From Trujillonella endophytica (GTDB lineage Bacteria; Actinomycetota; Actinomycetes; Mycobacteriales; Geodermatophilaceae), in NCBI RefSeq assembly GCF_900110555.1, contig NZ_FOEE01000022.1:1-41063 (forward strand): a stretch of 41,063 nucleotides of DNA, read 5' to 3'. The notes under the pieces were generated by a model. The model saw only the letters and a program-made list of their open reading frames with translations, was not told the origin of the DNA and ran no database searches. Below, piece after piece: positions 9,535 through 34,580 of the stretch. Numbering within the stretch: the stretch's first letter is position 1; the number at the start of each line of letters is the position of its first letter. The translations under genes were made by a program, and so were the position numbers.

Positions 9535-10761
9535 TCAGGGCGTGAGGACGACGGGGAGCTCGGCGAGGCCGCGGATCACGAACTCCGGACGGCGGCGGGG
9601 CGGGCGGCCCAGCTCCAGCCGCGAGGTCCGCTCCAGCAGCGCGCCGAAGGTGGCCTGCAGCTCCACGCGGGCCAGCGGCGCCCCGATGCAGAAGTGCACG
9701 CCGGCGCCGAAGGAGATCTGCGGATTGGGCGAGCGGCCGAGGTCCAGGGCGTCCGGATCGGCGAAGACGGCGGGGTCGCGGTTGGCGCTGCCGAGCAGCG
9801 CGGCGACCTTCTGCCCCCGGGCGACGGTCGCGCCGCCGAGCTCGACATCCTCGGTCGCGGTGCGCTCGAACAGCTGCAGCGGCGAGTCGAAGCGCATGAG
9901 CTCCTCGATCGCCGTCGGCAGGAGATCGGGATCGGCGCGCAGCCGGGCCAGCTGGTCGGGGTGCTCCAGCAGGGCCAGCAGCCCGTTGCCGGAGACGTTC
10001 ACCGTCGCCTCGTGGCCGGCGTTGAGCAGCAGGATGCAGGTGGTGACCAGCTCGTCCTCGGTGAGCTGGGCTTGGGCGGGGGCGGTCACGGAGTCGTCGC
10101 GCACCGAGACCAGGTGGCTGACGAGGTCCTCGCCGGGTGCGCGGCGGCGGTCGGCGACCAGTCCGCGCAGGTAGGCGACGAACTCGGCGGCGGCCCGCTC
10201 GGCGGCGTCCTCGACCGCCGTCGTCCGGCCGTACTCGTACATCTTCACGATCGCGTTGGACCACGGGCGCAGCAGCGGCCGGTCGGCGTGCGGCACGCCG
10301 AGCAGCTCGGCGATCACGGCGACCGGCAGCTCCTCGGCCATGCCGGCCAGGACGTCGACGGGCTCGCGGCCGGCCGAGCGCACGACCAGGCCGTCGACCA
10401 GCTCCCGGGCCAGCTCCTGCACCCACGGCCGCAGCCGCTCGACGTGGCCGCGGGCGAAGGCGGTGCTGATCAGCCGGCGCAGCCGGGTGTGGTCCGGCGG
10501 CTCCATCTCCAGGATCGCGTTGCGGTGGATCAGGTTGAACGACCCGAACCGCTCCGCGGGCTCCCGGTCCCGCCAGATGCGGCCCAGCCGCCGGTCGCGC
10601 AGGACGGCGCCGGCCTCGGCGTGGGTGAAGGCCAGCCACAGCCCCAGGCCGTCGTGCCACTGCACCGGCGCCTGCGCGCGGGCCCGGGCGAAGGCGGGAT
10701 AGGGATCGGCGACGACGGCGGGGTCGGCCAGGTCGATCGGCGGCGGGGCGGTGCTGGTCAC
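9535..10761 (-). CDS. Cytochrome P450 (bacterial CYP107/CYP105-like class)
   Basis: A 408-residue soluble P450. The heme-binding loop FGAGVHFCIGAPLAR places the thiolate at Cys358; EELMR gives the ExxR pair; LNAGHEATVN is the I-helix oxygen-binding groove, with Ala instead of the first Thr of the usual AGxET(T). MEPPDHTRLRRLISTAF is the C-helix block. The length and HP-rich N-terminus fit class I bacterial P450s that need separate ferredoxin partners, none of which are adjacent. GTG at 10761 follows TACGCT (10774-10769) by 7 nt, so the mRNA is probably leaderless. The substrate is unknown. Confidence 0.92.
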   Translation of the reverse strand: MTSTAPPPIDLADPAVVADPYPAFARARAQAPVQWHDGLGLWLAFTHAEAGAVLRDRRLGRIWRDREPAERFGSFNLIHRNAILEMEPPDHTRLRRLISTAFARGHVERLRPWVQELARELVDGLVVRSAGREPVDVLAGMAEELPVAVIAELLGVPHADRPLLRPWSNAIVKMYEYGRTTAVEDAAERAAAEFVAYLRGLVADRRRAPGEDLVSHLVSVRDDSVTAPAQAQLTEDELVTTCILLLNAGHEATVNVSGNGLLALLEHPDQLARLRADPDLLPTAIEELMRFDSPLQLFERTATEDVELGGATVARGQKVAALLGSANRDPAVFADPDALDLGRSPNPQISFGAGVHFCIGAPLARVELQATFGALLERTSRLELGRPPRRRPEFVIRGLAELPVVLTP

Positions 10762-10768
10762 GCCGTCG

Positions 10769-10826
10769 AGCGTAGGAGGGGTCGCCGGGTGTGCCGGCTC
10801 ACCGCCGTCGGGGCGCCGCCTAGCCT
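10769..10826. promoter_or_regulatory. Divergent leaderless promoters for P450 and SEC-C genes
   Basis: On the minus strand TACGCT (10774-10769) lies 7 nt before the P450 GTG. On the plus strand TAGCCT (10821-10826) lies 6 nt before the SEC-C ATG at 10833. Both match TAnnnT at the distance expected for leaderless transcripts. Confidence 0.5.
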
Positions 10827-10832
10827 GGAGGC

Positions 10833-11774
10833 ATGGCCCGCTCCGCGACCCGCCGCAAGCCCAGTTCCGCTCCCGCCGCCGAGGGGGGCGCCGTCAACCC
10901 CAAGGCGCCGTGCCCGTGCGGCTCGGGCCGCCGCTACAAGCACTGCCACGGCTCGGGCTACGCCCCGCCGGTGACCCGGCCGTTCGAGGGCCTGCCGGGC
11001 GAGCCCGACTGGGTGGCGCTGCGCGAGCTGGTGCCGGCCGCGACGGCCCCGCTGAAGACGACGGACGGCCGCGACGTGACGCTGGCCAGCGTCCTGCCGG
11101 GCGGGGCGCCGGCCCTGGTCCGGGCCAACGGCGAGATCATGCTGGGCGTCCAGCTCCCGGCCTCCTCCGACGACGTCAGCCGCGATCTGGGCACCGCCCT
11201 GGCCGCCGCCCTCGAGGCCCCGACCGGCGCGCCGGTCGAGCCGGGCCCGATCGGCGCCGCGGGCTCTGCGGGGCCGCGGCTGCAGGAGCTGCTCGACCTC
11301 TCCGCGCCGCTGGACGTCACCGTGCACGAGGACTTCGCCTTCTGGCTGGAGGGCACCGACCCCTCGCCGGCGGCGAAGGCCGGGCTGGAGCAGGCCAACC
11401 AGGCGGTGCTGCCCACGGTGCGCCTGCCCGGGCTCGGCGCGGCCTACTGGGTCCGGCCCAGCGACGAGCGGGCGCACCTGCGCTGGGTCCGCCCGGAGCC
11501 GGAGGAGAAGCTGCTCGACGCGCTGGCCCGGCTCTCGGCGTCGGAGCAGATCCTGCTCGGCGAGGGCACCCGCTACGCCGGGGCGTTCAGGGCGCACGGC
11601 CTCGTCGTCCCGGTGTGGGACCTGCCGGCCGACACCCTCGCCGACGACTGGACCGACGCTGCCACCGACTTCCAGGCCCGCCTGGAGCAGGCCCTGACGG
11701 TCACCGACCCGCTGACCTCCGACGAGCGCCGGGCCCGCGCCGGCCTGATCTCCCGCCAGATCACCCTGCGCTGA
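10833..11774 (+). CDS. SEC-C motif protein (DUF5926-like)
   Basis: A 313-residue protein whose N-terminus carries a SEC-C zinc hook: C27-P-C29-GSGRRYKH-C38-H39, the motif also found at the SecA C-terminus and in many unrelated cytosolic proteins. The rest (FEGLPGEPDWVALRELVPAATAPL... and LPGLGAAYWVRPSDERAHLRW...) matches what I remember of the actinobacterial DUF5926 family, whose function is not known. The ATG at 10833 has GGAGG immediately upstream and a TAGCCT -10 element 6 nt before it, so translation could be leaderless or SD-led. A 21-bp-stem hairpin follows the stop. Confidence 0.85.
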   Translation: MARSATRRKPSSAPAAEGGAVNPKAPCPCGSGRRYKHCHGSGYAPPVTRPFEGLPGEPDWVALRELVPAATAPLKTTDGRDVTLASVLPGGAPALVRANGEIMLGVQLPASSDDVSRDLGTALAAALEAPTGAPVEPGPIGAAGSAGPRLQELLDLSAPLDVTVHEDFAFWLEGTDPSPAAKAGLEQANQAVLPTVRLPGLGAAYWVRPSDERAHLRWVRPEPEEKLLDALARLSASEQILLGEGTRYAGAFRAHGLVVPVWDLPADTLADDWTDAATDFQARLEQALTVTDPLTSDERRARAGLISRQITLR

Positions 11775-26945: not shown

Positions 26946-27548
26946 TCAGCCGGCGAGCGCCCGCACCGTCTGGACGGCCGCGACGACGGCGAAGACCAGG
27001 AACAGGACGGCGGCCACCCGGCGGATCAGCGGCACCGGCAGCCGGGCCGCGAGGTGCTTGCCGAGGAACACGGCGAGCCCGGAGACGACCAGCAGTGCTG
27101 CCCAGGCTCCGACGAAGACCGACAGGGGCTCGTCGAAGCGGGCGGCCAGGCCGGCGGTCGCCAGCTGGGTCAGGTCCCCCCACTCGGCGGCGAAGAGCAC
27201 GCCGAAGGAGATCGCGGCCGCCCGCACGAACGACGTCCCCCCGCGCGCGTCGGCGGCGACCTCGTCGTCCTCGGGACCGCTGTCGGCGCTGCGCCACAGC
27301 AGGGCCGCGCCGATCAGGAACAGCAGGCCCACGGCCCCGGTCACCACCGCCTCCGGGAGCAGCGAGAGCAGGCTCCCCGCGGTGACGGCGATCGCCACCT
27401 GGGCGAAGAACGCCAGGCCGACGCCGACGAACACCGGCACCGGAGCGAACCGGGTGGCCAGCACGAGGCTGGCGAACATGGTCTTGTCCGGCAGCTCCGC
27501 CGGCAGGACGAGGACGAACGCGGTCGCGACGACCGACAGCACCAGCAC
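26946..27548 (-). CDS. GDT1/TMEM165 (UPF0016) family cation exporter, likely Mn2+
   Basis: A 200-residue membrane protein with six predicted helices in two repeats. Each repeat carries the family's acidic signature: PAELPDKTMFAS (Glu18, Asp21) and AEWGDLTQLA (Glu122, Asp125), variants of E-x-G-D-(K/R)-(T/S). A charged loop (SADSGPEDDEVAADARGG) separates the halves. Family members exchange Ca2+ or Mn2+, and bacterial ones export Mn2+. GTG at 27548 gives the canonical length, since the two hydrophobic repeats start there. The 5' leader contains a yybP-ykoY-type riboswitch, which strongly supports manganese as substrate. Confidence 0.9.
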   Translation of the reverse strand: MLVLSVVATAFVLVLPAELPDKTMFASLVLATRFAPVPVFVGVGLAFFAQVAIAVTAGSLLSLLPEAVVTGAVGLLFLIGAALLWRSADSGPEDDEVAADARGGTSFVRAAAISFGVLFAAEWGDLTQLATAGLAARFDEPLSVFVGAWAALLVVSGLAVFLGKHLAARLPVPLIRRVAAVLFLVFAVVAAVQTVRALAG

Positions 27549-27802: not shown

Positions 27803-29014
27803 ATGCCGTTCCGTTGACGCACCGACCGCTCCCGGCCGGCCCCGCTGCCGGCCGCCGCCCGCCCGCTGGCCCGCCTCGTCGTCGGCTGGACCGCGCTGGC
27901 GGGCCTGGTCCCGCTGTACCCGCTGTACGCCCTGCTGTTCCTGGACACCGGCCTGTCGCAGGGCGAGGTCTCGGGGTTGTTCGCGCTGTGGTCGGTCACC
28001 GCGTTCCTGGCCGAGGTCCCCGCCGGGGTGCTCGCCGACCGCTGGTCCCGGCGGGGCGCGCTCGTGCTGTCCGGCGTCGGCGAGGCCGCGGCCTTCGCGC
28101 TGTGGACGGCGGCGCCCGGTGCCGCCTCGTTCGCCGTGGGCTTCGTGGTGTGGGGCATCGCCGGGGCGCTCGTCTCCGGCACCGTCGAGGCGGTGCTGTA
28201 CGACGGGCTGGCGGGGCACGGCGCATCCGGCGCCTACGCCCGGGTGCACGGCTGGACGACGGCCGCCGAGCTCCTGGTGCAGGTGCCCACCGCCGGCCTC
28301 GCCACCGTTCTGGTCGCGGCCGGCGGGTACGAGCTGGTGGGCTGGGTCAGCGTCGTGGTCTGCCTGGCCGTCGCCGCGCTGGCGCTCCGCTTTCCGGACG
28401 CGCCCCCCGCGGTGTGCGCGGCGGCGCCGGACGGCGCGGCGGAGCCGGACGGCGCGGACGAGCCGCCGCTGGGGCGGGCCGTGGGGCTGGCACTGCGCCG
28501 GCCGGGGCTGCGCCTGGTCGTCGTCGCCGTGGCGGCGCTGGGCGGCCTCGACGCGCTGGAGGAGTACCAGCCCGTCCTGGCCGCCGAGTGGGGGGTGCCG
28601 GCGGCCGCGGTGCCGGTGGCCGTGCTGGCGGTGTCGCTGACCGGGGCACTGGGCGCGGCGCTCGGTGGCCGGGCCGCACGGCTGCCGGGCGTCGTGCTGC
28701 TCGGACTGCTGGTGGCCTCGGCGCTGCTGCTGGCCGGCGCGGCGCTGTGGGCGCGGCCCGTGGCGGTGGTCGCCCTGGCCTGCTCGTACGGGCTCTACCT
28801 CGCGGTTCTGGTCGTGGCCGAGACGCGCCTGCAGGAGCGGATCTCCGGCCGGTACCGGGCGACCCTCACCTCGGTGGCAGGGCTGGGCATCGAGCTCGCG
28901 TCGCTGCTGGTGTTCGCGGCGTGGGCGATGGGCGGCGCGCTCGCGGTCGCCGGGCTGGCGCTGGCCGTCGTCCCGCTGGTGGCCCGGGCGATGAGTGCCC
29001 GCCTACCGGCGTGA
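27803..29014 (+). CDS. MFS transporter with in-frame TGA at codon 5
   Basis: From 27818 to the TGA at 29012 one frame encodes a complete 12-helix major facilitator: TM1 GWTALAGLVPLYPLYALLF, the A-motif loop GVLADRWSRRGA, then EAVLYD and the C-terminal half ending ARLPA. The natural start is ATG 27803, 6 nt behind the TACCGT -10, but the frame reads M-P-F-R-TGA-R-T-D.... No ATG, GTG or TTG occurs in frame between the stop and TTG 27977, which would lose TM1. The gene is either freshly inactivated, started at a non-canonical codon, or read through (TGA-C is a leaky context). The body shows no other lesion. The substrate is unknown. Confidence 0.7.
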
Positions 29015-31828
29015 TCTCCGCGCGATGCGGGCGGCGAAGACCCCGGCGGCGTGGCCGTTGTCGATGTTGCTGACCACCACGCCGGGCGTGGAGGAGTTGA
29101 GCATGGTGAGCAGCGCGCCGAAGCCGCCGAACGACCCGGGCTGCCCGGTCGACGTCGGGACGGCGACGACCGGCACGTCGGTCGTCGCGGCCACCAGCCC
29201 GGCCAGGGAGGCGTCCAGCCCGGCGACGACGACCAGACAGTCGGCCCCGGCGAGCACCGAGGGGTCGGGCAGGCCGCTGTGCATCCGGCTGCCGCCGAGG
29301 TCGGCGAGCCGGACGACGTCGGTCCCGGCGACGCGGGCGGCGAACGCGGCCTCGGCGGCCACCGTGCCGTCACCGCCACCGGCGGACAGGACGACGACCT
29401 GCCCCTCCGGCTCGGGCAGCGCGCCGACGGCGGCCGACATGGCGGTGGCGTCCACCGTGGTCTGCCCGTCGAACTCCGCGGCCAGCGCCAGCAGGGTCTC
29501 GGCGGGGGCCCGGACGACGACCGCGGGCCGGTCCGGGTGCTCCCCGCGTGCCCGGCGGACCAGGGCGAGCACCTGCTCGGTGCTGCGCCCGGGAGCCCAG
29601 ACGACGTCGGGCTCGGCAGGCCGCGCGGGTGCCGGCGCGGACTCGGTCGGCAGCGGGACGCCGGGGTCCTCGGCTCGAGCCGGGGACAGCGGGACGTCGG
29701 CCGCCGTCGGCTCGAGCAGCAGCGCGGCGAACCCGCCGGCGACGCCTGTCGCCCCGGCCGGTGGCGCGGCAGCGGCAGGGGACACGGCATCGGCCGGCGG
29801 CGCGGCGGCGACCGGCGGCGCGGCAGCGGCGGGCGGCGCCGGGTCCGCGGTCCGCGGGGCGTCCCCGGGCTCCGCGGCGGGACCGGCGGGACCGGCGGGA
29901 CCGGCGGCCCGCTGGGTGACCGCCGGCAGGCTGACCACGCGGTCGCGGCCGCTGCGCTTGGCGTCGTAGAGCACGCCGTCGGCGGCGGCGAAGAGGGTGC
30001 GACGGTCGTCGCCGCGGGTGGCCGAGGCGACGCCCACGCTGATCGTGACGGGCCGGGTGAGCCCCTGCGCCGTCCAGTCGTGCGCGGCGACGGCGCGGCG
30101 GATCCGCTCCAGCGCGCGCTCGGCCTGTTCCGCCGTGGTGTCGGGCAGCAGGACGACGAACTCGTCGCCGGCCCACCGGCAGACCTCGTCGGTGTCGCGG
30201 CAGCCCTCGATGAGCAGGTCGCCCACCACCCGGAGCACGGTGTCGCCGCCGGGGTGGCCGATGGCGTCGTTGATCGACTTGAAGCGGTCGACGTCGACGA
30301 CGGCGAGGGCCGGGGTCGCGCCGGCGGCGATCAGCCCGTCGAGCCGCGCCTCCGCGTAGCGGCGGTTGGGCAGGTGCGTGAGCGGGTCCTCGTAGGCCTG
30401 CCGGCGGAGCTGACCGGCCGCCCGCTCGGTCTCCAGCAGGCTCTTGCGCCGGCCGAACAGCTCCACCCAGCGGGTGCGCCGCTCGTCGACCCGGTCGAGC
30501 TCGTCGGCGAGGTAGGCCTGCAGGTAGGGCAGGGCCCGGCCGGCGTCGTCGAGCTCGGCGTGCAGCGTGCACAGCTCGCGCAACGCGGCCCGCCGCAGCC
30601 GGGGGAGGCCGTGCTCGGTGGCCAGCGCCAGCGCCTTGGCCAGCTGCTCGTCGGCGCCCCCGCCGTCGCCCTGGCGGCGCAGCGCGCGGCCCAGCGCCAG
30701 CAGGGCCGCGGCCAGCAGGGCGCGGTCGCCGGTCGCGCTGGTGATCCGGACGGCGGCGCGCAGCGGGCCCGCGGCGGCGGCGTGCTCCCCGAGGCCGACC
30801 AGCGCCCAGCCGTGCACCACCTGCGCCGCGACCACCGCGTCGGCCGCCTCGGGCGGCAGCAGGGCCAGCGCGTCCTCGGCGAGGCGGCGCGCCTCGGCGA
30901 AGTGCGGCGCCGCGGACTCCGGCACGCCGTCGTCCAGCAGCCCCTCGCCGAGCTCCGCGCACAGCTCGCCCAGCCGGGTCGCGGCGCGGGCGACGAGCAG
31001 GGCGTCGTCGTCGATCGGGGCGGGAGCCGGGCCGGCGGCGGTGGGCTCGGCGACGGCGGCCAGCGCCGTCTCGTGTGCCCGGCGCTGGTAGTCCAGCGCG
31101 AGCGGCATGAGCTCCAGGTCGGCGAGGACCCCGGCCAGCGTGGCCAGCGTGTCGACCAGCAGGGCCGTGGGCGGGAGCGCCGGGTCCAGCAGGCTGGCCG
31201 CCTCGACGGCCTCGTCCATGGCCGCATCGATCCGCCGCGAGAGCAGCTCGATGCGCGCGTGCCGGGCCAGGCCGGCGGCCCGCTGCAGGTCGTCGTCCGT
31301 GGCGTCGAAGGCCGCCTTCGCCGAGCGGACCAGCGCGATCGCCAGCGCGGCGTGCGAGGCCGGCTCGGCCTGTGCGTCGCCCGCGTGCCCGGCCCCGTCG
31401 ACGAGGCCGGCCAGGCCGGCGTGCAGGTCCAGCGGGGGAGCGGCCTCCCCGGCCTGGGGCTCGACGGGATCGCCGACGAGGGTGAAGCCGGCCATCCGCA
31501 GCCGGCGGACGAGCAGCTCGGCCCGCAGCGTGTCGGCCCAGGCGCGGCCGAGGGTCGCCAGCGCGGTGGGGTCGGCGCCGTCGGGCGGGGTCGCGCAGGC
31601 CGCGTAGGGGGAGGCGTCGCACCCGATGTCGGCCAGCAACTCCTCGGCGTCGTCGAGGCGCCAGTCGGAGAGGGCAGCGGTCACCCGGTGGTGCAGGGCT
31701 CCCGGAGGCACGAGCGCACTGTGCACGCCGCCGTCCTCGCTGTCACGCACCGCTCCGGAGGCGCGCCGGGTCGGGGACGGACCGTCGTCCGTTTCGTCAC
31801 AGGAGTCCCAACGTGGCGAGACGGTCAC
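29003..31828 (-). CDS. TPR-like + GGDEF diguanylate cyclase fused to a LarB-like domain (941 aa)
   Basis: Three parts lie in one frame. Residues 30-460 are Ala/Leu-rich helical repeats (TPR-like sensor). Residues about 470-630 are a GGDEF domain with AGDEF at 553-557 and an inhibitory I-site R544-DT-D547 five residues before it, so c-di-GMP synthesis and product inhibition look possible. After a 110-residue Ala/Pro linker, residues 738-941 match LarB/PurE-like proteins (DVVWAPGRSTEQV, VVVVAGLDASLAGLV-type block, VPVVAVPTSTGQPG, LLTMLNSS, NIDNGHAAG). LarB makes the biscarboxylated precursor of the nickel-pincer cofactor, but its usual NSCA cysteine is Ser913 here. GTG 31828 overlaps the upstream stop (GTGA); GTG 31726, with GAGGA 7 nt upstream, is an alternative. 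Confidence 0.85.
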   Translation of the reverse strand: MTVSPRWDSCDETDDGPSPTRRASGAVRDSEDGGVHSALVPPGALHHRVTAALSDWRLDDAEELLADIGCDASPYAACATPPDGADPTALATLGRAWADTLRAELLVRRLRMAGFTLVGDPVEPQAGEAAPPLDLHAGLAGLVDGAGHAGDAQAEPASHAALAIALVRSAKAAFDATDDDLQRAAGLARHARIELLSRRIDAAMDEAVEAASLLDPALPPTALLVDTLATLAGVLADLELMPLALDYQRRAHETALAAVAEPTAAGPAPAPIDDDALLVARAATRLGELCAELGEGLLDDGVPESAAPHFAEARRLAEDALALLPPEAADAVVAAQVVHGWALVGLGEHAAAAGPLRAAVRITSATGDRALLAAALLALGRALRRQGDGGGADEQLAKALALATEHGLPRLRRAALRELCTLHAELDDAGRALPYLQAYLADELDRVDERRTRWVELFGRRKSLLETERAAGQLRRQAYEDPLTHLPNRRYAEARLDGLIAAGATPALAVVDVDRFKSINDAIGHPGGDTVLRVVGDLLIEGCRDTDEVCRWAGDEFVVLLPDTTAEQAERALERIRRAVAAHDWTAQGLTRPVTISVGVASATRGDDRRTLFAAADGVLYDAKRSGRDRVVSLPAVTQRAAGPAGPAGPAAEPGDAPRTADPAPPAAAAPPVAAAPPADAVSPAAAAPPAGATGVAGGFAALLLEPTAADVPLSPARAEDPGVPLPTESAPAPARPAEPDVVWAPGRSTEQVLALVRRARGEHPDRPAVVVRAPAETLLALAAEFDGQTTVDATAMSAAVGALPEPEGQVVVLSAGGGDGTVAAEAAFAARVAGTDVVRLADLGGSRMHSGLPDPSVLAGADCLVVVAGLDASLAGLVAATTDVPVVAVPTSTGQPGSFGGFGALLTMLNSSTPGVVVSNIDNGHAAGVFAARIARRSRR
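29876..29907 (-). repeat. 9-bp minisatellite in the GGDEF-LarB linker
   Basis: GGCGGGACC is repeated 3.6 times in the plus strand and encodes (GPA)n at the start of the Ala/Pro linker. The adjoining 29760-29840 is also made of near-repeats of GCGGC units. Length variation among strains is expected and would only change the linker, because the unit is in frame. Confidence 0.7.
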
Positions 31829-33504
31829 TCGCTGTCCCCGCCGGTGGTGCCCGGCGCGCGCACCCGGTTGCGCCCGCCCCGCTTGGCGCTGAACAGGTGG
31901 AGGTCGGCGGTGTCGAACAGCGACCGCCACCCCGCCGGCACGGTCTGCTCGGCGTCGCGGGGCGGCGCGGTGGCCACGCCGATGCTGACGGTGACCGGCT
32001 CGGGCAGCTGGAGCTCGCCCCAGTCGGCGGCGGCCACGGCGGCCCGCAACCGCTCCATCGCCAGCAGCGCCTGGCTCGCGGTGGCCTCGGGCAGCACCAC
32101 GAGGAACTCGTCGCCGGCCCAGCGGTACACCTCGTCGCCGGTGCGGCAGTGCTCCCGCAGGAGGTCCGCCACCCGGCGGAGCACCTCGTCGCCGCGCGAG
32201 TGGGAGGTGTCGTCGTTGACGGCCTTGAACCGGTCGACGTCGACGACCGCGAGCGACAGCGGCGCGTCGCCCAGCGGCATGCTGCCCAGCCGGCGTTCGG
32301 CGCTGCGCCGGTTGCCGAGGCCGGTGAGCGGGTCCTCGAGGGCGTAGGTGCGCAGCACGGCGGCCTGCCGCTCGGCCTCGCGCAGTCGGCTGCGGCGCAC
32401 GAACATCTCCGCCCACAGCTCGCGGCTGCGCGCGTGCGCCCGGCCGGCCTCGCCGCGGTAGGCCTCGAGCCAGTGCAGGGCCTCGGCGGGCCGGCCCTGG
32501 GCGGCGGTGGCCTGGCCGAGCTCGAGCAGGCACTGGCGGTAGCGGCGCCGGTCGCCCGCGGCGGCGAAGGCCCCGGCCGCGTCGACCAGCAGGTCGGTGG
32601 CCTCCTCGGCGTGCCCGCCGCCGGCCCGGTCGGCGGAGAGGCGGGCGAGCAGCCTCGCCAGCACGAGGTCGGTGTAGCCCCGCAGCCAGATGCCGCCGTC
32701 CCGGTGCACCCGGCGGTGCGCCCGGCGGAGGGGGCCCAGCGCCCCGTCCCGGTCCCCGGCGCAGGCCATCGCCCACGCCTGGACGACGTCGAGCAGGTCG
32801 CCGTCGGCGGGCTCCGGCTCCCGGTCGAGCGAGCGGGCCTCGGTGGCGCAGGCGAGCGCGACGGCGGCAAGCTCGCCGGCGCGCCGGTCCTGTCCCCGCC
32901 GGCGCTGGGTCTGGGCGAGCTCCACGTGCTGCTGCGCGCACAGCAGCAGCAGCTGCCACCGGTCGGCGAGGTCCGGCAGGTCGGCGGCGATGCGTGACCC
33001 CTGCAGGGCCTGCGCCACCGCCAGTTCCTCGAGGTCGAGGGCGCCGAGGGTCAGCGACAGCCACAGGTGCGCCTGGTGGTGGGCCCGGCCCGGCCCGGGG
33101 CCGCCGGTGCCCCCGGAGGCACCCCCCGACGCCTCGGCCAGCAGGCTGGCGTCGACGGCCAGCAGCATCGCGGCGTCCACGTGGTCGGCGGTCGCCTCCA
33201 CGTGGGCGAGGTAGGCGAGCGTGAGGGCGGTCAGCGCCGTGGGCGGACAGCCGCCGAGTGCCGTCCGCGCGGCCCCGACGGCGGCCGTGGCGGAGTCGAT
33301 GTCGGCGTCGATCAGCGCGCGGCGGGCGTCGAACGCGTGCCGCCAGGCGACCCACGCGGGGTCGGTCGGGGCGGCGAAGAGCTCCGCGGTGTCGTCGTGC
33401 TCGCGGGCGAACGCCGGGGGGTCGACGCGGTCGCTGGCCGCGAGAAGACGCCAGAGAGCAGCATCCAGATCACGCTCCGTGACGCGGATGGTGCCGGGGG
33501 TCAC
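31825..33504 (-). CDS. TPR-like sensor + GGDEF diguanylate cyclase (559 aa)
   Basis: The N-terminal 370 residues are helical repeats without a membrane segment, followed by a linker helix (ELWAEMFVRRSRLREAERQA) and a GGDEF domain: LEDPLTGLGNRRSAERRL, VVDVDRFKAVND, an RTGD I-site and AGDEF at 463-467. It would make c-di-GMP from two GTP in the cytoplasm. It is a paralogue of the next gene (same TPR-linker-GGDEF order) and its TGA overlaps that gene's GTG, so the pair is co-translated. GTG at 33504 has GGAGGG 4 nt upstream. The input signal of the helical domain is unknown. Confidence 0.88.
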   Translation of the reverse strand: MTPGTIRVTERDLDAALWRLLAASDRVDPPAFAREHDDTAELFAAPTDPAWVAWRHAFDARRALIDADIDSATAAVGAARTALGGCPPTALTALTLAYLAHVEATADHVDAAMLLAVDASLLAEASGGASGGTGGPGPGRAHHQAHLWLSLTLGALDLEELAVAQALQGSRIAADLPDLADRWQLLLLCAQQHVELAQTQRRRGQDRRAGELAAVALACATEARSLDREPEPADGDLLDVVQAWAMACAGDRDGALGPLRRAHRRVHRDGGIWLRGYTDLVLARLLARLSADRAGGGHAEEATDLLVDAAGAFAAAGDRRRYRQCLLELGQATAAQGRPAEALHWLEAYRGEAGRAHARSRELWAEMFVRRSRLREAERQAAVLRTYALEDPLTGLGNRRSAERRLGSMPLGDAPLSLAVVDVDRFKAVNDDTSHSRGDEVLRRVADLLREHCRTGDEVYRWAGDEFLVVLPEATASQALLAMERLRAAVAAADWGELQLPEPVTVSIGVATAPPRDAEQTVPAGWRSLFDTADLHLFSAKRGGRNRVRAPGTTGGDSE

Positions 33505-33605: not shown

Positions 33606-34580
33606 ATGCCCGCGTCGCCGCTCGACTCCGTACCTCCTGGTACGCAGCCCACCAGCACGTCTCCGACGACGTTCGCCTACCTGGGCCCCGAGGGTACCTT
33701 CGCCGAGGCGGCACTGAGCAGGGCAGTCGGGGATGCCGCCCCGCGCTCCCCGCGGCCGACCGTGGCCGCCGCGCTCGCCGCCGTCCGGGCCGGCGAGGTC
33801 GACGCGGCGCTGGTGCCCTTCGAGAACAGCATCGAGGGATCGGTGCCCGCCACGATGGACGGGCTGGCCGACGGCGATCCGTTGCTGATCGCCCGCGAGG
33901 TCTTCCTGGAGCCCAGCTTCGTGCTGGCCGCCCGGCCCGGGACGACGCTGGCCGGCGTCCGGTCCGTGGCCAGCCACCCGCACGCGCTGGCCCAGACCGC
34001 CCGCTGGCTGGCGGCCACCCTGCCCACCCTCGCGCCGCAGACGGAGACCTCCACGGCCGGCGCGGCGGAGGCGGTCGCGGCGGGCCGCTACGACGCCGCC
34101 GTCTGCGCCCCCATCGCCGCGCAGCGCTACGGGCTCACCGCGCTCGCCGAGGACATCGCCGACCACCGCGGCGCGGTCACCCGGTTCGTGCTGGTCGCGC
34201 CGCCCGGCCCGCTGCCGGAGCCGACGGGCAACGACAAGACCTCGCTGGTGGCGGTCGTGGCGGACCGCACCGGCGCGCTGCTGGAGGTCCTCCGCGAGTT
34301 CGCGGCGCGCGGGATCAGCCTGACCCGGATCGAGTCCCGCCCCACCCGCGAGCGGCGCTGGGTCTACTCCTTCTCCCTCGACTGCGAGGGGCACGTCGCC
34401 GACGCCCGGGTCGGGGAGGCGCTGGCCGCGCTGCACCGGGTCTGCGACGACGTCCGCTTCCTCGGTTCCTATCCGCGCGCCGACGACCGGGAGAACCGGC
34501 CGGTGGCCGGGGAGGCCACCGACGCCGCGTTCACCGACGCCGACGAGTGGCTGTCGCGGGTCCGCGCCGGGCGGCTGTAG
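33606..34580 (+). CDS. pheA: Prephenate dehydratase
   Basis: A 324-residue monofunctional enzyme converting prephenate to phenylpyruvate in phenylalanine synthesis. The catalytic half runs from FAYLGPEGTFAEAAL through VPFENSIEGSV to T192-R193-F194 (the essential TRF motif). It is followed by an ACT regulatory domain with GALLEVL (223-229) and ESRP (243-246), the phenylalanine-binding signature, so feedback control is expected. A 20-residue Ser/Thr/Pro tail precedes the fold, and a 35-residue acidic tail follows the ACT domain. It is convergent with the MMPL gene, 9 bp apart. Proximity to serS is common in this group of actinobacteria (from memory). Confidence 0.95.
   Translation: MPASPLDSVPPGTQPTSTSPTTFAYLGPEGTFAEAALSRAVGDAAPRSPRPTVAAALAAVRAGEVDAALVPFENSIEGSVPATMDGLADGDPLLIAREVFLEPSFVLAARPGTTLAGVRSVASHPHALAQTARWLAATLPTLAPQTETSTAGAAEAVAAGRYDAAVCAPIAAQRYGLTALAEDIADHRGAVTRFVLVAPPGPLPEPTGNDKTSLVAVVADRTGALLEVLREFAARGISLTRIESRPTRERRWVYSFSLDCEGHVADARVGEALAALHRVCDDVRFLGSYPRADDRENRPVAGEATDAAFTDADEWLSRVRAGRL

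Follow-up and report, generated by a model that had tools for sequence, protein, structure and literature searches.

A diguanylate cyclase gene of Geodermatophilaceae carries a LarB-like domain that lacks the catalytic residues of LarB

Why would a diguanylate cyclase end in a domain that resembles LarB, an enzyme of nickel-pincer cofactor synthesis, and that lacks the LarB catalytic cysteine? The question is raised by a gene in a 41,063-nucleotide stretch of Trujillonella endophytica DNA (contig NZ_FOEE01000022.1, positions 1 to 41,063; hereafter the window), in which a single frame of 941 open codons on the reverse strand encodes a TPR-like region, a GGDEF domain, a linker and a LarB-like domain (Table 1). 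We think it likely that, in an ancestor of most Geodermatophilaceae, one member of a tandem pair of TPR-GGDEF cyclases took up the native larB that stood at the pheA locus, and that the captured domain lost catalysis and was conserved as a non-catalytic assembly or regulatory module.

The single-frame fusion proposed in the initial annotation of this DNA is real. The fusion protein scored 131.3 bits against the Pfam GGDEF family (PF00990, gathering cut-off 23.8), and its translation contains the AGDEF signature and the RxxD inhibitory site (I-site), here RDTD, that the annotation had listed. All 79 unique intact frames in the fetched loci hold both a match to the GGDEF query and the LarB-like part; the signature is AGDEF in 74 and AGDEY in the remaining five, and the I-site is found throughout (RxxD in 74/74 AGDEF frames, RDTD in the five AGDEY frames). 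A TPR_MalT match at residues 310-438 (33.6 bits) falls under its Pfam gathering cut-off of 45. Further downstream, Pfam AIRC/PurE matched residues 861-937 with 41.4 bits (cut-off 30), and the NCBIfam LarB model NF033503 matched residues 736-937 over profile positions 8-208 of 209. The GGDEF and PurE-like assignments are thus above their cut-offs, but the LarB score, 144.3 bits, is below the equivalog cut-off of 175, an outcome that the initial annotation had named as counting against its reading; the fold match is nonetheless solid. With phmmer the domain aligned to residues 45-243 of L. plantarum LarB (E 1e-29), and its AlphaFold2 model (predicted local distance difference test score 87.5) matched LarB chains in Foldseek with a TM-score of 0.85 over about 200 columns at 36-37% identity, both the N-terminal subdomain and the PurE-like core of the LarB fold being present. 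In a further structure model a long helix runs into the GGDEF domain, the linker is of low confidence and the domains have no fixed packing (predicted TM-score 0.50). The start of the fusion is uncertain: the GTG at 31828, where the range given in the initial annotation ends, overlaps the stop of the upstream gene by 4 nt, but the codon-usage caller puts the start at 31684.

The fusion is kept across the family. Two samples of Geodermatophilaceae were searched, one of 35 genomes (our own included) and one of 63, and the fused-type domain was found in 26/35 and 62/63, respectively; in the second sample the fused type was called by score and frame length, with GGDEF checked in the fetched loci only. 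The nine non-carriers of the first sample, assemblies of 190-550 contigs each from three other genera, gave only matches of the separate-LarB type. The nearest named relatives of the locus are Blastococcus. The best 80 of 214 confirmed loci lie in records of Geodermatophilaceae genera or of family or order members, bar one unverified 'Bacillus sp.' record. For a sample of 197 genomes drawn from the phylum, the listed LarB-like matches, those of the present genome apart, all lay in frames of 632 codons or less. High-GC genomes can give long chance frames, and some canonical LarBs in both genome samples sit in frames of 815-938 codons; in G300, a genome of the order outside the family, a canonical-type match lies in an 882-codon frame (here and below, G and L numbers denote genomes and loci).

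In 57 of the 62 family carriers the domain lies in a frame of at least 900 codons, and three of the five shorter frames end at contig ends. The other two (L145 in G186 and L147 in G342, both single-contig genomes) break in the linker, ahead of a well-conserved LarB-like part; either a sequencing error or a real split may be the cause. Two separate genes that a sequencing error within the GC-rich linker had merged would fit these breaks and the repeat-rich character of the linker, but the 57 long frames and the 79 unique intact GGDEF and LarB-like frames, coming from many independent assemblies, practically refute such an annotation or assembly artefact, and it was dropped. Besides its fused-type match and two others, G342 has a partial LarB-like match (G342:C1:1461594-1462019, 115.8 bits) in a 286-codon frame.

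The fused domain has lost the residues of LarB catalysis. Cys221 of LarB reportedly forms an adduct with the pyridine of its substrate. Residues were counted over 89 unique fused domains and are numbered after L. plantarum LarB. Cys221 is absent from all 88 domains that have the position (Ala in 68, Ser in 9, Thr in 5, Gly in 4 and Pro in 2, with a gap in the remaining one), and alignment places Ser913 of the present gene, within NSST, at this site, as the initial annotation had read it. The AGTSD loop reads AGGGD here, and Ser127 is replaced in 87/87 domains having the position. Tyr204 is lost in 89/89, and three further residues are nearly gone: one domain retains Arg159, eight retain Thr126 and nine, among them that of this gene, retain His158. 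Because the first 15 canonical LarBs had been chosen by a pattern requiring Cys, which left out 5/20 loci, the comparison was redone twice, once with canonical LarBs picked by a profile that itself derived from the same 15, and once with LarBs that pass the NCBIfam cut-off. Cys is kept in 24/24 unique canonical LarBs of the profile-picked set, and in the 17 of the 26 carriers that also encode a LarB over the cut-off (the dual genomes below), Cys221 and Ser127 are present in 17/17 LarBs and in 0/17 fused domains. Separately encoded homologues thus carry the Cys, which the initial annotation had held would count against its proposal, but the fused domains never do; the family-wide loss of the Cys and a probably non-catalytic role are both supported. 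LarB is described in PMC11796402 as an enzyme using a dinucleotide, and that paper and PMC9283937 cite Rankin et al. (2021).

Searches of the T. endophytica genome found no LarC, no LarE over cut-off, no LarA and no LarB besides the fusion, so that neither larC nor, judged over cut-off, larE is found elsewhere in the genome, where the initial annotation had pointed. An active enzyme that turns over nicotinic acid adenine dinucleotide (NaAD) or a similar compound without the Cys, feeding nickel-pincer synthesis or a new pathway, is extremely unlikely: the fold is kept and Asp180 is present in 82/89 fused domains (compare 20/24 canonical LarBs), but Cys221 and Ser127 are gone from all unique fused domains having these positions, the present genome lacks the Lar proteins just listed, and 17 carriers have separate Cys-bearing LarBs.

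The LarB-like domain is also retained in genomes that have lost LarB and LarE and, mostly, LarC as well. Nine of the 26 carriers (G000, G001, G004, G005, G014, G020, G022, G027 and G028) lack both LarB and LarE over cut-offs, and eight of these also lack LarC. A direct tie of the fusion to nickel-pincer synthesis was dropped because of these nine. The ninth, G020, keeps a larC next to the fusion (locus L031; G020:C7:51171-52274); its score of 311.8 bits is low for an intact gene, and it is perhaps a decaying relic. In L029 (G019) the larC downstream of the fusion (9732-10909) was split by the caller into two pieces, although that genome has LarB and LarE matches over cut-offs. Literature searches for a LarB-GGDEF or nickel-pincer/diguanylate cyclase link, and for LarB or GGDEF pseudoenzymes, returned nothing fitting as judged by titles; on diguanylate cyclases of Geodermatophilaceae there was one title match, on a sigma/anti-sigma switch.

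Is the domain then kept for a reason? Pairwise Nei-Gojobori estimates of the ratio of nonsynonymous to synonymous substitution rates (dN/dS) over 34 close pairs gave a median of 0.20 for the LarB-like domain, close to that of the TPR part (0.22), above that of GGDEF (0.06) and below that of the linker (0.46). Between this gene and that of L035, both from genomes without LarB and LarE, the domain value is 0.17. Constraint has also moved within the domain. In the 17 dual genomes, identity among fused domains against that among true LarBs was 0.62 against 0.87 for AGTSD, 0.57 against 0.92 for DVGVAGLHR, 0.64 against 0.96 for AGMEGALP and 0.73 against 0.95 for PTSVGYG, with overall ranges for the catalytic loops of 0.57-0.77 and 0.87-0.99; the first three loops are the least conserved stretches of the fused domain. 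Residues 84-112, in contrast, are tighter in the fused domain (0.82 against 0.61), and residues 48-83 and 130-145 are similarly conserved in both. This shift and the dN/dS values place the domain under purifying selection at the level of sequence; it is therefore selected, and everything points to a role other than LarB chemistry. A functionless C-terminal tail left by the gene fusion would explain why the domain is eroded by deletions in L046 and L047, why the frame breaks in L145 and L147 and why the domain evolves faster than GGDEF. Such a neutral passenger is very unlikely and was dropped, given a dN/dS as low as that of the TPR part and far under that of the linker, retention in 62/63 family genomes and a stretch (residues 84-112) more conserved than in true LarB.

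The neighbours of the fusion and a tree of LarB domains point to its origin. Among 25 relatives' loci, the order in fusion genomes is pheA, TPR-GGDEF, TPR-GGDEF-LarB-like and then often larC. The latter lies on the same strand at most 0.8 kb downstream of the fusion in 13/25, 4-5 kb away in 3, elsewhere in 2 and is absent in 7. Genes were called by a home-made codon-usage script, which called pheA in 24/25 (L044 being the exception) and left larB uncalled in L131, although the profile search places larB there. In L046 and L148 the fusion frame overlaps larC by 4 nt, and the same overlap joins larB and larC in 6 of 8 outgroup loci. In the fusion-free family genomes G009, G018, G025 and G032, larB-larC adjoins pheA. 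Among the outgroup loci it adjoins pheA in L138 and L141, lies one gene off in L135 and L137 and about three genes off in L134 and L136; pheA is farther away in L139, and no pheA lies within the stretch of L140. The GGDEF query gave no match in the fusion-free family loci or the outgroup loci. In the tree, 21 of the 89 fused domains form a single clade (support 100/100, stem of 0.93 changes per site) that shares a larger clade (98/87) with all but one of the ten pheA-linked native LarBs. Another clade holds eleven LarBs of family members that keep the Cys, its nearest rows being larE-linked; four more (g1/g4) belong to neither clade. From this grouping and the pheA and larC neighbours we therefore infer both the capture and its direction: a TPR-GGDEF pair would have inserted at the locus and taken up the native larB, the domain then probably becoming a pseudoenzyme, and the catalytic role would have passed to a second LarB. 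Import of LarB from elsewhere was dropped, since the fused domains group with mostly pheA-linked native LarBs.

The junction may preserve a trace of this event. The linker is the in-frame Ala/Pro repeat region that the initial annotation had described: Tandem Repeats Finder detects short GC-rich repeats in it (for example, period 18 in 4.7 copies at 29755-29839), and over the 79 unique frames it is rich in Pro and Ala and 68-174 residues long. A [GA]FxxLL-like element occurs in 79/79 linkers (0.5 expected by shuffling) with a pattern that was loosened after the linkers had been inspected, an initial stricter pattern having matched 36/79. Between VTQ at the linker start and the LarB-like domain, no column of the 79-row alignment is invariant except the Phe of this element. 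Because 'LGF' precedes the conserved RxGxPEV in 28/36 canonical LarB rows, and also in L. plantarum LarB, the element is a possible relic of the LarB N-terminus displaced by insertion. The first ~40 residues of LarB, which the initial annotation had reported missing, are accordingly a mixed case: the clear match does start near residue 48 of L. plantarum LarB, but the N-terminus may have been stretched by an insertion and not simply be absent. PLG..EPLLGP-like elements were also seen in 35/79 linkers and LDxLFG-like elements in 40/79, with patterns chosen after inspection; these repeated elements are possible docking motifs.

What might the captured domain do? The TPR part would receive a protein signal, and the GGDEF domain is predicted to make cyclic di-GMP (c-di-GMP) with feedback through its I-site. 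Known LarB is an octamer. The flexibly tethered LarB-like domain would keep the self-assembling PurE/LarB fold, and its assembly could pair the GGDEF half-sites or keep them apart, and thereby control how active the cyclase is; this assembly may in turn be adjusted by a ligand bound in the remodelled pocket. The initial annotation had instead suggested a sensor of the LarB dinucleotide. As stated, that idea is unsupported: Ser127 and Tyr204 are lost everywhere, Thr126, His158 and Arg159 nearly so, and the domain is kept in genomes lacking LarB, LarE and mostly LarC, although NAD synthesis would still supply NaAD there. The pocket loops are relaxed, which tips the balance towards an assembly role and away from recognition of the former substrate.

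A wider form of the sensor idea, in which c-di-GMP synthesis is gated by a small molecule that the remodelled pocket binds but does not turn over (a dinucleotide of the NaAD/NAD type, some other nucleotide or a metabolite without phosphate), is possible, if doubtful. LarB itself uses a dinucleotide, Asp128, Glu134, Asp151, Thr200, Ser201, Asp231 and Gly233 are kept in at least 87/89 fused domains, and the substitutions G181A (89/89), G156R (82/89), Y204Q (71/89) and K57R are fixed or common. Against it stand the lost residues just named and the three poorly conserved loops AGTSD, DVGVAGLHR and AGMEGALP. We consider it unlikely, as a more specific version, that the domain senses an NAD-pathway dinucleotide or related metabolite through a new, conserved site of Arg156, Gln204 and Ala181, which would make the captured operon enzyme a metabolite gauge for c-di-GMP.

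Several observations weigh against capture followed by an assembly role. The near-fixed new residues suggest a selected pocket and fit ligand sensing too, and therefore a remodelled ligand sensor stays the chief rival; the assembly role itself is one that we infer from the fold. One of the 63 family genomes, G247, has no fused-type domain, also in a second search, and in a few lineages the domain is eroded by deletions (L046 and L047) or preceded by a frame break (L145 and L147). Four further pairs of genomes without LarB and LarE gave domain dN/dS values of 0.16, 0.28, 0.33 and 0.36, and whole-domain identity in the 17 dual genomes is lower for the fused domain (0.72) than for true LarB (0.82). 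In the tree, the pheA-linked native LarB of L017 falls outside the clade of the fusion, and the tree does not single out one native LarB as closest to the fusion. With these points counted, capture and conversion into a non-catalytic assembly or regulatory module is still the account that we hold to be likely.

The features of the locus are collected in Table 1. Apart from the tandem partner of the fusion, no further called gene of the window matched the GGDEF query. In L030, L033, L035, L036 and L043, the neighbourhood of the GDT1-like gene holds more genes, about 400-500 codons long, that match this query. An MFS gene similar to the convergent one of the window is found near the locus in 12/25 relatives, and beyond larC where larC stays beside the fusion.

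Table 1. Features of the fusion gene and its surroundings in the window.
Feature	Coordinates	Strand	Basis or remark
Fusion gene, TPR-like/GGDEF/linker/LarB-like	29003..31828	-	941 codons + stop; frame, Pfam and NCBIfam scans, codon-usage calling
TPR-like sensor region, about residues 49-440	30509..31684	-	TPR_MalT match; region matched by relative in 25/25 loci
GGDEF domain, residues 478-630, AGDEF and RDTD inhibitory-site motif	29939..30397	-	Pfam, translation
Ala/Pro-rich linker with short tandem repeats	29615..29926	-	Frame comparison, structure model, Tandem Repeats Finder
GGFAALL element within linker, residues 698-704; possible relic of LarB N-terminal 'LGFA'	29717..29737	-	
LarB-like pseudoenzyme domain, residues 739-941	29006..29614	-	Profile, alignment, fold
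Ser913 codon, site of LarB catalytic Cys221	29090..29092	-	Alignment to L. plantarum LarB
Tandem upstream TPR-GGDEF gene without LarB domain	31825..33504	-	Stop overlaps GTG at 31828; in 25/25 relatives' loci
pheA (prephenate dehydratase), divergent; marks presumed ancestral larB-larC site	33606..34580	+	
Major facilitator superfamily (MFS) transporter, convergent	27977..29014	+	Overlaps fusion stop by 12 nt
GDT1-family cation antiporter	26946..27548	-	Syntenic in many relatives

The locus offers an apparently clear case of a neighbouring signalling gene that captures an operon enzyme and turns it into a pseudoenzyme module, and three states can be seen within one family: plain pheA/larB-larC, the fusion with larC beside it, and the fusion in genomes devoid of lar genes. 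Diguanylate cyclases would thereby gain a partner domain that we did not find described in the literature searched. For annotation, larB-like matches in Geodermatophilaceae need not imply nickel-pincer cofactor synthesis, and since the domain is kept after loss of the pathway, a non-catalytic function is directly testable.

Compared with LarB of known structure (PDB 7mj0/7mj1/7mj2 and 8soq/8stc/8std), the fused domain shares the fold across its whole length, a probable origin in the native larB that occupied this locus and, in relatives, the larC neighbour. It differs in lacking Cys221, Ser127 and Tyr204, in standing behind a diguanylate cyclase, in scoring below the equivalog cut-off and in occurring also in genomes without LarE or LarC. 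PurE (5-aminoimidazole ribonucleotide carboxylase, PF00731) resembles the C-terminal part of the LarB fold, as the AIRC score reflects, but the fusion matches only profile positions 54-128 of 148, and a strong PurE match lies elsewhere in the genome. With GGDEF diguanylate cyclases (PF00990, TIGR00254) the fusion shares AGDEF, the RxxD I-site and the long helix into the GGDEF domain; unlike them, it adds a C-terminal LarB-fold pseudoenzyme after a long linker.

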